In this document: one piece after another, positions 17,938 through 24,727 of the stretch | Position numbering within the stretch: the first letter of the stretch is position 1 | How the letters are laid out: the number at the start of each line of letters is the position of its first letter | Source of the DNA: Gammaproteobacteria bacterium | Lineage (GTDB): Bacteria; Pseudomonadota; Gammaproteobacteria; Ga0077554; Ga007554 | Direction of reading: 5' to 3' | Assembly (NCBI GenBank): GCA_040183005.1 | Contig: JAMPIW010000007.1 | Location: 1,310,188-1,374,187, forward strand | DNA length: 64,000 bases | Made by a program: the position numbers and the translations under genes | Notes under the pieces: generated by a model | What the model saw: only the letters and a program-made list of their open reading frames with translations | Told to the model about the DNA's origin: nothing | The model's database searches: none

Positions 17938-18451
17938 GCCGTGCTCACGTGTATGAGTTATGTCGACCTCAATCCAATTCGTGCGAGCATGGCCCAAACG
18001 CCGGAAGAATCCGATTTCACGAGCATTCAACAACGCATTTGTAGCCTGCAACCACAACCTGCCTCGGCTCCCAAAGAAGCAGCGCCGCCTGTGTCACCGG
18101 AGACCACCAGCGTTCAACCGCCCTTGATGCCTTTGGTCAAAAGCCAATCAAGACGAACACGTGCATCGCCTAGGCTACACCGAACGCGACCACTTAGAAT
18201 TAGTCGACTGGGCAGGTCGGGCTGTCCGATCTGACAAGCGTGGCGCAATTCCTGGCCATATTCCGCCAATCTTAAACCGACTCGGGCTTGATCCGGGACG
18301 TTATCTCCACTACATGAGCGGGAAATCCAAGCTCACCCACCATCTAACGGCAATTGGTCCGCTTGATCAACTGCAAGCCCTGGCAAAGAAAATGGGGCAA
18401 TCCTTCTTGAAGAATGGGCTAGCCCGACAGCTGTATTGTGCCAGCGTGTAA
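17938..18451 (+). pseudogene. REP-associated tyrosine transposase (RAYT, IS200-like), frameshifted C-terminal remnant
   Basis: Frame one gives [20 protein letters not shown] and DFTSIQQRI, typical of the RAYT C-terminal half. Around 18145-18165 the frame changes and continues [20 protein letters not shown], then [20 protein letters not shown] to the stop at 18449-18451. The catalytic HUH part is missing. The GGGGTCAGACACT tail just after (18469-18481) is a common edge of such elements. Confidence 0.85.
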
Positions 18452-18790
18452 CGCGCGCGGGACAAATGGGGTCAGACACTCATGGCACTCGCTTAAGCAA
18501 TCGCTGATCATAAATGAGGTCACGCGCGACTTGACGTGTCACGGTTAACAGCGGAAGGTTCTTGGGTCGTCGCTTCTTCGCAATACGCAATACTTACGGC
18601 TGACTGGAGGACTCTTACCTCCGGTCCGTTTCGGTCCTTTATGACAGCCTTTTTGGCTTTCGAACATCGTGACAGAGCTGAGGCCAATTAAAGTGTAGCG
18701 TCCTCTTTTGTTCGGCGCGCCAGCATGATAATGTAATCATTCATTTCCTTTCGCGGCGCTCAGGCCACCGGTCCATCCAAAGGAAGAGTC
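18452..18790. other. Intergenic stretch before the subtilase gene
   Basis: No gene recognised. It begins with the RAYT-type edge motif (AATGGGGTCAGAC, 18466-18478). AGGAAG at 18781-18786 is the subtilase ribosome site. Confidence 0.45.
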
Positions 18791-20410
18791 ATGGTCACCA
18801 AGAAGACGGGCAGAAAGCGCGCTCGCAGCGCCGTCACCCCGCCCCCAGTTGCGGGGGCGCCGAATCAGAGCGAGCAAATCGCGCGCACCCTGGTCAAAAC
18901 GGTTATTGCACTGCCGCTGCTCGACAAGATGAACGCCGAGACCGCCACCCGCCTCATGGATCCAACGATCGCGCCAGTCCTCTACGACGTCATCATCGAT
19001 CTGCACCAGGAGTATCCGAAAGGGCGCGACGAAGCGCGCAAGTGGGTGATCCAGGCCATCAACCACATCTTCCAGGCGCGGAACATCGCGACCGGTCCCG
19101 CAGGGGAGCGCATCGATGTCGAGAAGAGCTCCTACACGAGCCAGTATCTCTTCGCGCGGCTTTCCGGCGGCGTGATCCGCGATCTGGTGGTCGCCGATGG
19201 GGAGCCGAAGACGATCGCCGACACAGACGTAAAGCGGACGTCGGGCCCTCACGCGATCTTCCAGATCTGGGAGGACTTCAAGGTCCATCCGCTCATCTGC
19301 GGTTCGATTTCGACCATGAAGGCCGATGCGGCGCGCGCCGCGTTCCGGGCCGAAGGCGGCGACATCGTCTGGGCAGTTATCGACTCAGGGATCCAGGGCG
19401 ACCACGTTCATTTCAAGCAGCACGGCAACCTGGAAGGGCAAGTCAAGGAGTGGCACAAGGACTTCACCGGCGAAGGAAACGCGCTCGACGACGGCTTCGG
19501 CCACGGTACGCACGTCGCGGGGATCATCGCTGGCGAGGTCGCGGCGTGCGAGAAGGATCCGCACCCCGATATCGTCGCCTACACCCGGTTGCTGAAGCCC
19601 GATGGCGACCAAACTGAGCGCGAGCTCAGCTACGAGCGCCTGAAACTGGCATCGATCTGTGGCATGGCGCCGAAGACCAAGCTGGTCAGCCTGAAGGTGA
19701 TCGGTGCCGACGAGCAGGGCGCGGTTTCAAACATCATCGCAGCGCTCGCATACATCCAGACGATCAACGCCAACGGCCGGCACATACGCATCCACGGCAT
19801 CAACCTGTCGGTCGGCTACGCCTTCGATCCCGAGTGGTTCGCGTGCGGACAGAGCCAGCTGTGTGTCGAGGTCAACCGCTTGGTGCGTTCGGGCGTCGTG
19901 GTGGTCGTGGCGGCCGGCAACACTGGCTACGGCACCGTCGCAACCGAGTTCAATGCCGCGCGCAAGACCGGCCTCGCGCTGTCGATTAACGATCCCGGCA
20001 ACGCGGATGGCGCGATCACGGTGGGGTCGACCCACCGCACCATGCCGCACGTCTACGGCGTGTCCTATTTCTCGTCGAAGGGTCCGACTGGCGACGGGCG
20101 CATGAAGCCCGACCTCGTCGCGCCGGGCGAGAAAGTGGTCTCGTGCGCATCGGGCAAGCTACGCGACCACATCGCCGCGAAGCTGGAAGACGGTGTCGTC
20201 CCGACCTACATCGAGAGCACCGGCACGAGCATGGCCGCGCCCCATGTCTCCGGCGCGGCAGCGGCGCTGTTGTCGGTGAAAAAGGAGTTCATCGGCCTGC
20301 CGGAGCGAGTGAAGGAGATTTTCGTCGCTACCGCGACCGATTTGCGCCGCGAGCGGCATTTCCAGGGTGCGGGCCTGATCGACTTGATGCGTGCGATCCA
20401 GTCCGTTTGA
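18791..20410 (+). CDS. Intracellular subtilisin-like serine protease (S8 family) with a long N-terminal domain
   Basis: 539 residues. The catalytic triad is complete: Asp198 (WAVIDSGIQG), His238 (FGHGTHVAGIIAG) and Ser480 (STGTSMAAPHVSG), with oxyanion Asn377 (VAAGNTG). There is no signal peptide and the start is basic (KKTGRKRAR), so it should act in the cytosol. Residues 1-185 form a separate helical N-terminal domain, which could be a propeptide or a sensor. An insert between His and Asn (about 250-345) is longer than in simple subtilisins. The next gene (20436) is on the same strand 25 bases away with its own ribosome site, so the two form an operon. Codon use (GCG, GAC, AAG rich) differs from nearby accessory genes, and transposon remnants lie upstream, which suggests acquisition. 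Confidence 0.92.
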   Translation: MVTKKTGRKRARSAVTPPPVAGAPNQSEQIARTLVKTVIALPLLDKMNAETATRLMDPTIAPVLYDVIIDLHQEYPKGRDEARKWVIQAINHIFQARNIATGPAGERIDVEKSSYTSQYLFARLSGGVIRDLVVADGEPKTIADTDVKRTSGPHAIFQIWEDFKVHPLICGSISTMKADAARAAFRAEGGDIVWAVIDSGIQGDHVHFKQHGNLEGQVKEWHKDFTGEGNALDDGFGHGTHVAGIIAGEVAACEKDPHPDIVAYTRLLKPDGDQTERELSYERLKLASICGMAPKTKLVSLKVIGADEQGAVSNIIAALAYIQTINANGRHIRIHGINLSVGYAFDPEWFACGQSQLCVEVNRLVRSGVVVVVAAGNTGYGTVATEFNAARKTGLALSINDPGNADGAITVGSTHRTMPHVYGVSYFSSKGPTGDGRMKPDLVAPGEKVVSCASGKLRDHIAAKLEDGVVPTYIESTGTSMAAPHVSGAAAALLSVKKEFIGLPERVKEIFVATATDLRRERHFQGAGLIDLMRAIQSV

Positions 20411-20435
20411 CATAACTCAATGGCAGGAGATAACA

Positions 20436-21755
20436 ATGGCTGACTTATCAGGATTCCCGTTCTTCCCAGTCGAGTTCGACAAGCAAGGCAATATCCACGA
20501 CCCGGCTCAGCCGGCGGCGCTTGAAGCACATCTCGCGAAAGGCGGCACGACCGACCTCATAGTGTTCTCACACGGCTGGAACAACGACATGGACGAGGCG
20601 AGCCAACTCTATGCCGACTTTTTCGCGAGTGCGCGAGCGGTGCTCGATACCGGCAAGGTGCCGGGCGCTGCGGCGCGCACGTTCGCCGTGCTCGGTGTGC
20701 TATGGCCGTCGAAGAAGTTCGCCGACAAGGAACTCATCCCGAGCGGCGCGGCGGGCGCCGGGTCGACGGTGGAGATCGACGACCTGCGCGACAAGCTGCG
20801 CGGTCTGCACGGCACGTTTGACGCCCCGGACGCCGACCAGAAGCTCACCGACCTGGAAAAGCTGCTGCCCAAGCTCGAGGATAGCGCAAGCGCGTGCAAG
20901 ACATTCGTCGACGGTGTGCGCGGGCTGATGAAACCGAGCGCGGGCGACGATGCCGATGCGGCGAAGCTGTTCTTCTCGATACCTGCGGGCGATCTGTTCA
21001 CCAAGCTGCAGCAGCCGGTCTCGTTCACCGCAATCGCGGCCCCAGCGGGCGGAGGCGGGGCCGCGACCATCGGCGACACGGGTGGCGCTGCCGGCCTCGG
21101 AAGCTTTTTTAGCGGTATTGGCTCGGGCGTGCGCAACCTGCTCAACCTCACCACCTACTACCAGATGAAGGAGCGCGCCGGACTCGTGGGCGCAGTCGGC
21201 GTGAACCCACTCGTCTCCGGGCTCAAGAAGAAATACCCGGCACTGCGTTTGCATCTAGTCGGCCACAGCTTTGGCGGTCGGCTGGTCACCGCGGTTGCCG
21301 CTGGCGCCGACGATGCTAGCGTGATCAAGGCGAACTCGCTCAGCCTACTGCAGGCGGCGTATTCACATTACGGCCTGGCGCAGAAGTGGGACGGGCAGCA
21401 AGACGGCGCCTTCCGGCGCGTCGTCGCCCTGGGCGTCATCTTGGGACCGACGATCATCACCTGCACCGCGAACGACAAAGCGGTCGGTCTGGCTTATCCG
21501 ATCGCGTCGATCGTCGCCGGCCAGGTCGCGGCTGGCCTCGGTGACGAGAACGACAAGTACGGCGGCATAGGACGCAACGGTGCCCAGAAGACCCCGGAGG
21601 CGGTGAAGGCGGAGCTGCTCGACGTCGGCGGCGCCTACGCGCTCACGCCGGGAAAGATCCACAACCTGCGCGCCGACCCGTTCATCTCCAGCCACAGCGA
21701 CATCACCAACAAGCAGGTGGCCTATGCGGTGCTGACGGCGATTGCGGCGACCTGA
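20436..21755 (+). CDS. Alpha/beta hydrolase (lipase/esterase fold), partner of the subtilase
   Basis: 439 residues, starting at ATG 20436 after AGGAGA; a reading from 20391 would overlap the protease end. The nucleophile elbow GHSFGGR gives Ser278. Asp347 in TCTANDKAV and His420 in SSHSD are good candidates for the rest of the triad, and FSHGWNN (44-50) fits the oxyanion strand. A Gly/Ala-rich segment (about 200-235, with SFFSGIGSG) could be a membrane-touching lid. No signal peptide is seen. The substrate is unknown: lipid, ester or another small molecule. Pairing with a protease suggests activation or release by cleavage, which is inference. Confidence 0.85.
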   Translation: MADLSGFPFFPVEFDKQGNIHDPAQPAALEAHLAKGGTTDLIVFSHGWNNDMDEASQLYADFFASARAVLDTGKVPGAAARTFAVLGVLWPSKKFADKELIPSGAAGAGSTVEIDDLRDKLRGLHGTFDAPDADQKLTDLEKLLPKLEDSASACKTFVDGVRGLMKPSAGDDADAAKLFFSIPAGDLFTKLQQPVSFTAIAAPAGGGGAATIGDTGGAAGLGSFFSGIGSGVRNLLNLTTYYQMKERAGLVGAVGVNPLVSGLKKKYPALRLHLVGHSFGGRLVTAVAAGADDASVIKANSLSLLQAAYSHYGLAQKWDGQQDGAFRRVVALGVILGPTIITCTANDKAVGLAYPIASIVAGQVAAGLGDENDKYGGIGRNGAQKTPEAVKAELLDVGGAYALTPGKIHNLRADPFISSHSDITNKQVAYAVLTAIAAT

Positions 21756-21899
21756 ATCCGAAAGTCTCGAAGATTCTCAGGGCAACAGTGCGGGGTACGG
21801 GTGGCGGCCGCAGAAGGCGCAGGTCAAGTCTTGCATTAACACATTCCGCCTGAAACCCAGTTCAAAACAATTAGAATCATTGGGCTCAGCATCAAAGAG

Positions 21900-22046
21900 T
21901 CAAATGGTCACAAGGCGGAAAAATGGTATCGCCTCGCCGCCGAGCAGGGTTACCCCGATGCACGAGCCAGCCTGGAGATCCTTTATAGCGGGGCACTGCT
22001 ACACCACCATATGACGGAAAAAAGCCGACAGCTAACTTCCGAGTAA
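21900..22046 (+). pseudogene. Sel1-repeat protein, C-terminal remnant
   Basis: 48 codons in frame to TAA at 22044: KAEKWYRLAAEQGYPDARAS, then LEILYSGALL. 'WYRLAAEQGYPDA' is a Sel1-like repeat core. There is no start codon or ribosome site for it, so it is a leftover 3' end. The rest of 21756-22081 holds nothing recognisable. Confidence 0.6.
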
Positions 22047-24044: not shown

Positions 24045-24090
24045 TCAGGTGTAGGTTGGGTCCGCTTCTCTTGACCCAACTTACACCTGA
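24045..24090. repeat. Hairpin repeat, family A (left of AT-rich island)
   Basis: TCAGGTGTAGGTTGGGTC (24045-24062) pairs with GACCCAACTTACACCTGA (24073-24090) with one mismatch. The core TAGGTTGGGTC...GACCCAACCTA is a widespread proteobacterial intergenic palindrome and recurs at 24636-24727. Confidence 0.85.
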
Positions 24091-24635: not shown

Positions 24636-24727
24636 GTGTAGGTTGGGTCAAGGAGCGCAAGCTCCGGACCCAACGAATCACAACCTGGAGTAATGTTGGG
24701 TCCGCTTCGCTTGACCCAACCTACATT
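24636..24727. repeat. Hairpin repeats, family A, two copies (right of AT-rich island)
   Basis: One copy at 24636-24676 (GTAGGTTGGGTC ... GGACCCAACGA) and one at 24692-24727 (TGTTGGGTC ... GACCCAACCTACA). They sit between the hom stop and the AT-rich island. Confidence 0.85.

Follow-up and report, generated by a model that had tools for sequence, protein, structure and literature searches.

A conserved, horizontally spread pair of S8 protease and alpha/beta-hydrolase genes, proposed to be a protease-effector module

Why is a cytosolic protease of the subtilase family encoded directly ahead of an alpha/beta hydrolase in a gammaproteobacterium, and what might the two enzymes do together? Both genes lie in a stretch of 64,000 nucleotides, referred to here as the window, and an earlier note, made from the letters of the sequence alone, had taken them for a protease-triggered effector on a mobile-looking segment. 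The features of the locus are listed in Table 1.

Table 1 Features of the protease-hydrolase locus, with positions in the window
Feature	Position	Strand	Remarks
Degraded RAYT-like transposase remnant, left edge of the insert	17941..18469	+	The name RAYT is that of the earlier note
Acquired segment bearing the pair, ~3.4 kb	18470..21908		Comparison with sister genome; GC content
S8 (subtilase) protease gene	18791..20410	+	539 aa, ORF intact
I9-like propeptide (by fold), protease residues ~61-168	18971..19294	+	Model aligned to pro-subtilisin structures
Intergenic gap, 25 bp	20411..20435	+	AGGAG, ribosome-site-like, ahead of the hydrolase ATG
Alpha/beta hydrolase gene	20436..21755	+	439 aa, ORF intact
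Hydrolase loop 1, residues 97-112, DKELIPSGAAGAGSTV	20724..20771	+	100-110 predicted disordered; GAA motif
Hydrolase helical insertion, residues ~111-198	20766..21029	+	AF2 model
Hydrolase loop 2, residues 196-230	21021..21125	+	199-224 predicted disordered; GGAAT and GGAAGLG
3' remnant of a Sel1-like gene, right edge of the insert	21909..22016	+	Comparison with G399

A conserved gene pair on an acquired segment

The two reading frames are complete, on one strand and 25 bases apart, as had been read before, and the full sets of catalytic residues attributed to both proteins are present and invariant across relatives. The claim that neither protein has a signal peptide also stands, in that no hydrophobic signal-like stretch was seen at either N terminus (by eye, no predictor). 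The hydrolase starts at an ATG that aligns with the starts of its relatives, unlike the longer GTG start of the ORF caller. The GC content of the two genes is 64%, compared with 56% for the window. Neither protein scored above any curated cut-off in NCBIfam.

In the sister species (genome G399), the sequence on the left of the segment (window 18084-18469, 91.5% identity) and that on the right (from 21909) are separated by 221 bp. The pair therefore lies in an insert of about 3.4 kb, and it was acquired since the split from this sister species. The Sel1-like gene is intact in G399, and only its 3' end is left in the window. In the other two genus mates, the right flank is kept and the left flank is unmatched. 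The mobile look of the segment is supported by its absence from the sister species, and the sister genome also backs the transposon and Sel1 remnants described alongside the genes, although these short pieces gave no Pfam match by themselves. Elsewhere in the window, short sequences at 24055-24085 and 24636-24701 are repeated many times in this genome and in those of its genus mates, and are possibly a small dispersed repeat family.

In all 40 loci with a hydrolase relative fetched from species genomes, the gene immediately before the hydrolase, on the same strand, is that of the protease, with a gap of 7-309 bp (median 26). The loci come from about nine phyla altogether: Nitrospirota, Verrucomicrobiota, Pseudomonadota, Fibrobacterota, Acidobacteriota, Bacteroidota, Myxococcota, Actinomycetota, and one MAG labelled Cyanobacteria. 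The pair is a conserved unit. Adjacency in distant genomes was the support that the earlier note had looked for, and homologues usually lying apart, which would have refuted it, were not found. The pairwise distances of the proteases and the hydrolases are correlated (Mantel r 0.64, 0/2000 permutations, 50 loci), and the closest relatives of the window pair are the same in the two trees. No further gene is conserved beside the pair in the 40 loci except for a third gene in three of them (L021:9344, L022:6869, and L030:9335), which resembles a dienelactone hydrolase and follows closely after the pair.

The distribution is sporadic. The hydrolase is missing from all three genus mates; a 45% identical copy, again with the protease, occurs in one family member. 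The hydrolase occurs in one of 398 Pseudomonadota genomes, and in samples around other members in 5/292, 14/296, 5/199, 3/241, and 1/289 genomes (the seed genome is included in each sample). The pair is horizontally spread. It had no match in phage records or viral contigs, and phage carriage is therefore unsupported; one plasmid locus adjoins transporter and thiamine genes. Around the loci, 15 PADLOC families each matched one or two of 127 neighbouring ORFs, so that defence-like neighbours exist but are few, and with no background rate at hand the clustering in defence islands envisaged earlier is weak. An ordinary housekeeping esterase was considered for the hydrolase and rejected because of its sporadic distribution and its absence from the genus mates. 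No grouping with housekeeping esterases, the other outcome named as a refutation, was found.

Predicted structures of the two proteins

The protease belongs to peptidase family S8: it has a subtilase domain (Pfam PF00082, 1.6e-43) with a catalytic triad of Asp198, His238, and Ser480 and an oxyanion residue Asn377, all invariant across relatives, and its AF2 model (pLDDT 78) matches subtilisins with Z of 29-33. The N-terminal domain of 185 residues, to which no role had been assigned, is there, and its role can now be suggested from its fold. Residues 63-537 of the model align with the unprocessed pro-subtilisin E (3whi; Z 32.6, 328 residues), and the model from residue 33 aligns with ProN-Tk-SP (3afg; Z 32.7, 370 residues). 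Based on these alignments with unprocessed pro-subtilisins, the domain is, by fold only, a subtilisin-type, I9-like propeptide, with β-α-β-α-β elements at 64-71, 78-96, 119-125, 126-137, and 156-161 in the model. The Pfam scan of the protease reported no propeptide family. The propeptide of subtilisin helps folding and inhibits the enzyme.

The hydrolase belongs to the alpha/beta-hydrolase superfamily by its canonical fold and its triad of Ser278 (in GHSFG), Asp347, and His420, which is invariant in the protease-partnered members. An oxyanion-type HGW is found at residues 46-48. In the Pfam scan, DUF900 was just below the cut-off and no other family matched; PADLOC gave no match, Foldseek returned nothing below E 0.05, and a profile search of solved structures yielded weak matches only. 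The best structural matches of the AF2 model (pLDDT 85, pTM 0.87) were the DDHD/NirD domains of Nir1/Nir2, the T6SS phospholipase effector Tle3, and LipA of B. subtilis (Z 12.7). Z values around 13, obtained via structure comparison, indicate a common fold, not a function. The model supports a lipase- or phospholipase-like enzyme, for which no substrate has been shown.

In the model, the alpha/beta-hydrolase core is interrupted between the strand at 83-89 and the helix at 228-266 by an insertion, in which helices (114-191) are placed between two disordered stretches (100-110 and 199-224). We propose that the helical part is a lid over the active site, an inference in which the covering of the site remains unproven, and that the two disordered stretches are cleavage loops, where the cleavage is likewise inferred. 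The Gly-rich segment that had been called possibly membrane-active is real (residues 199-224), but it resembles a cleavable loop more than a stretch that would act on a membrane.

Exchange of partners and loop motifs

The hydrolase is found with other proteases. Next to its divergent relatives in cyanobacteria (L044 and L089-L092) and Sinorhizobium (L049) is a gene for a C25 cysteine peptidase, followed in the cyanobacterial loci by proteins of the CHAT type; the one case that was fully scanned also showed nSTAND1 and WD40 repeats. Four other loci (L045, L050, L101, and L109) have the order hydrolase, unknown protein, CHAT, and C25-family protein. The unknown protein of this four-gene unit has ~450-490 aa, and no Pfam match was obtained in the two cases scanned. 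The S8-partnered and C25/CHAT-partnered hydrolases fall on opposite sides of the hydrolase tree (96/83), and five partner changes are needed over its 69 sequences; its deep placement is uncertain because of long branches. The hydrolase can also exist without a protease, as four Streptomyces-type actinomycete relatives, nested on the S8 side of the tree, and two further loci with no protease found show. The four actinomycete hydrolases (L098, L099, L100, and L102), which apparently share one common chromosomal setting, do not have GAA in both loops.

The protease is in turn found with other effectors. In the plasmid collection, a close relative of the protease was found in 24 records, and an effector lay beside it or was fused to it in all 24. 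Those plasmid relatives that resemble the window protease over most of their length have the hydrolase as partner, and the remaining ones form a separate clade (100/100) or are fusions. An MBL enzyme is encoded directly downstream of sister S8 proteases in five records and in the second locus of a sixth. In PADLOC, the matches of the four MBL partners that were scanned were to LmuA (down to 7e-53), Avs1a, and RTasMBL, which are the nucleases of Lamassu, Avs1, and DRT there. Partner swapping thus goes two ways, for both the protease and the effector. On plasmid pCMU01 of Methylorubrum extorquens CM4 (L132:350-7022), a Pycsar-like cyclase, an E2, and a cNMP-binding TIR effector are encoded directly upstream of the S8 protease and the MBL nuclease-like gene, and the whole looks like a composite immune operon. 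The other S8-MBL loci adjoin patatin, Tle1-like, FRG, or SIR2 genes. On plasmid p_2 of Rhizobium leguminosarum RCAM2802 (L131:4653-6608), the S8 protease and a C-terminal TIR form a single protein. In genome G1352 (L143:5795-12170), an alpha/beta-hydrolase-like domain is fused to the S8 protease with a caspase (C14) gene alongside, and an additional hydrolase-like ORF of this locus has no Pfam match.

The company kept by these relatives bears on a function outside immunity. The protease might mature a storage-lipid, ester, or acyl-processing enzyme in a stress-response or metabolic pair, as could be read from the ordinary lipases and esterases among the fold matches, the mostly non-defence neighbours, the plasmid locus among transporter and thiamine genes, and the dienelactone-hydrolase-like third gene of three loci. 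We consider this unlikely: such a role fits poorly with a very sporadic occurrence (1/398 Pseudomonadota, 0/3 genus mates), horizontal spread, and plasmid carriage, and the divergent hydrolases sit with CHAT-nSTAND1-WD40 proteins, as the sister S8 proteases do with Lamassu/Avs-type enzymes and TIR.

The two loops were compared within each hydrolase against 500 composition-preserving shuffles, taking the best motif of each shuffle. As the motifs were derived from the data, this procedure corrects for the choice of motif but not for shared ancestry. GAA is present in both loops of 27 of the 52 S8-partnered hydrolases, where the shuffles reached a maximum of 8 (relatedness ignored), and its density in these proteins is 0.028 per residue in the loops versus 0.0008 elsewhere. 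The loop regions are Gly/Ala-rich, and about half of the S8-partnered hydrolases do not have the exact GAA in both loops. SF occurs in both loops of five of the seven C25-partnered hydrolases, which are related sequences, a count attained in 0/500 shuffles. GAA is not present in both loops of any C25-partnered hydrolase, whereas SF is present in both loops of a single S8-partnered one. Among the five protease-less hydrolases tested, none has GAA in both loops and none has SF in both. No common loop motif beyond chance was found in the four CHAT+C25-partnered hydrolases, in which a suspected DFG motif did not hold, and no clear one in six MBL partners of the sister S8 proteases. The two disordered loops of the hydrolase carry partner-dependent motifs.

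Could the enzymes be parallel effectors that act independently and are merely linked, neither cleaving its partner? Peptidases and alpha/beta-hydrolases were treated as modules of conflict systems by Kaur 2020 (PMC7159879), where cleavage was not shown. This explanation is very improbable for the present pair, as it would leave the one-to-one pairing without other conserved genes, the correlated divergence of protease and hydrolase, and the partner-dependent motifs in both disordered loops without a reason.

Proposed mechanism and relation to known systems

Here, we propose that the two genes make up a horizontally spread protease-effector module for abortive defence, whose lipase-like effector is activated by the protease (probability about 0.6); cleavage, activation, the lipid target, and defence are inferred. 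The cytosolic S8 protease would be made as a zymogen and held by its own inhibitory propeptide. It would become active upon a trigger, probably phage infection or damage; the two genes include no obvious sensor, and the trigger is therefore unknown. The active protease may then cut the hydrolase in the two disordered loops flanking the helical insertion, by analogy at the GAA sites. Such cutting would release or loosen the insertion and free or reshape the active site, and the activated lipase-like enzyme may attack lipids or another essential ester, so that the infected cell would die or stop growing. The loops as the sites of cutting, the lipid substrate, and cell death as the outcome are inferences, as are the purpose of defence and the direction of the effect, activation and not inactivation. 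The earlier idea of a protease-triggered effector is supported by the conserved pairing, by the insert, and by the swapping with caspase-clan proteases and immune nucleases.

The opposite direction would make the pair resemble a toxin-antitoxin system, in which the protease destroys a harmful lipase and harm follows once the protease is lost or blocked. Adjacent, apparently co-transcribed genes that are inherited together would fit this equally, and the protease gene comes first in order, as antitoxin genes often do. It is nevertheless decidedly unlikely, since the actinomycetes that carry a related hydrolase without a protease survive, the same S8 family pairs with enzymes of the gated-MBL type, of which the relatives studied so far undergo activation by their protease instead of destruction, and the enrichment of common motifs in flexible loops suits limited over destructive cleavage.

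Activation of the hydrolase by its protease can be compared with several known systems. Bacterial gasdermin operons are small cytosolic modules of a protease and an effector with exchangeable proteases, and the present pair is like them in these respects; unlike them, its effector has the alpha/beta-hydrolase fold and is not a gasdermin, which places the pair outside this group. IetAS, an anti-phage system of an ATPase and an S8 protease, shares the S8 protease with a weak profile match, but the score was 36 bits against a curated cut-off of 900 and no IetA ATPase gene is present in the insert, so that the pair is not an IetAS system.

A closer parallel to the gate is found in the nuclease-protease pairs and Canu systems of Tuck 2025 (HamM/HamAB, Avs1, and CanABC; PMC12799240). 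HamM is a pro-nuclease whose active site is blocked by two disordered insertions; these are cut by the partner protease at I118 and I218, and pre-cut HamM is toxic without the protease. CanC, a caspase-partnered relative of HamM, is a pro-nuclease likewise gated by two disordered insertions, with a conserved Gly in both, and activated by its partner protease. The present pair resembles these systems in having a protease beside the effector, in horizontal shuffling, and in the sister S8 proteases, whose partners belong, judged by their PADLOC scores, to that MBL effector family. The two disordered loops around the insertion of the hydrolase parallel the two-site gate of HamM, although their cutting is inferred. 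Unlike in the Tuck 2025 pairs, the effector is an alpha/beta hydrolase and not an MBL nuclease, the protease is of family S8 and not a trypsin or caspase, and the window contains no gene for a sensor. Neither "subtilisin" nor "subtilase" appears in the main text of PMC12799240 (supplement aside), in which other protease families beside the nuclease are mentioned.

In the VMAP (MoxR-vWA) conflict systems, caspase domains are always accompanied by a neighbouring alpha/beta-hydrolase gene (Kaur 2020; PMC7159879), and alpha/beta-hydrolases were also placed among death-domain-linked effectors (Kaur 2021; PMC8195603). The idea that proteases and hydrolases are linked in conflict systems is therefore not new. 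The present pair shares with VMAP systems this combination and the predicted setting of immunity or cell death, but it has S8 instead of a caspase, and the VMAP systems are larger, multi-gene systems. Six cyanobacterial VMAP-C loci contained no member of the hydrolase family, which are too few to exclude kinship. The literature searched, which did not cover subscription papers, preprints, or supplements, contained no description of an S8 and alpha/beta-hydrolase pair, nor were partner swapping in two directions and the two-loop gate found there. We suggest only tentatively that the S8-hydrolase pair forms a minimal immune module not described before, where the protease, a zymogen, would excise a helical gate from a pro-lipase at two partner-specific sites.

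If this is true, gated proenzyme effectors arose in two unrelated folds, the MBL nuclease and the alpha/beta hydrolase, and were served by interchangeable proteases (S8, C25/CHAT, trypsin, and caspase). Lipase-like enzymes would then be added to pore-formers and nucleases as proenzymes activated by proteolysis, and bacterial immunity would follow a general rule by which exchangeable proteases act on gated effectors. Because of the loop motifs, mutations of a few residues would suffice to test this rule. A role would also be found for a family of hydrolases that is widespread and unnamed, and that databases label "hypothetical protein".
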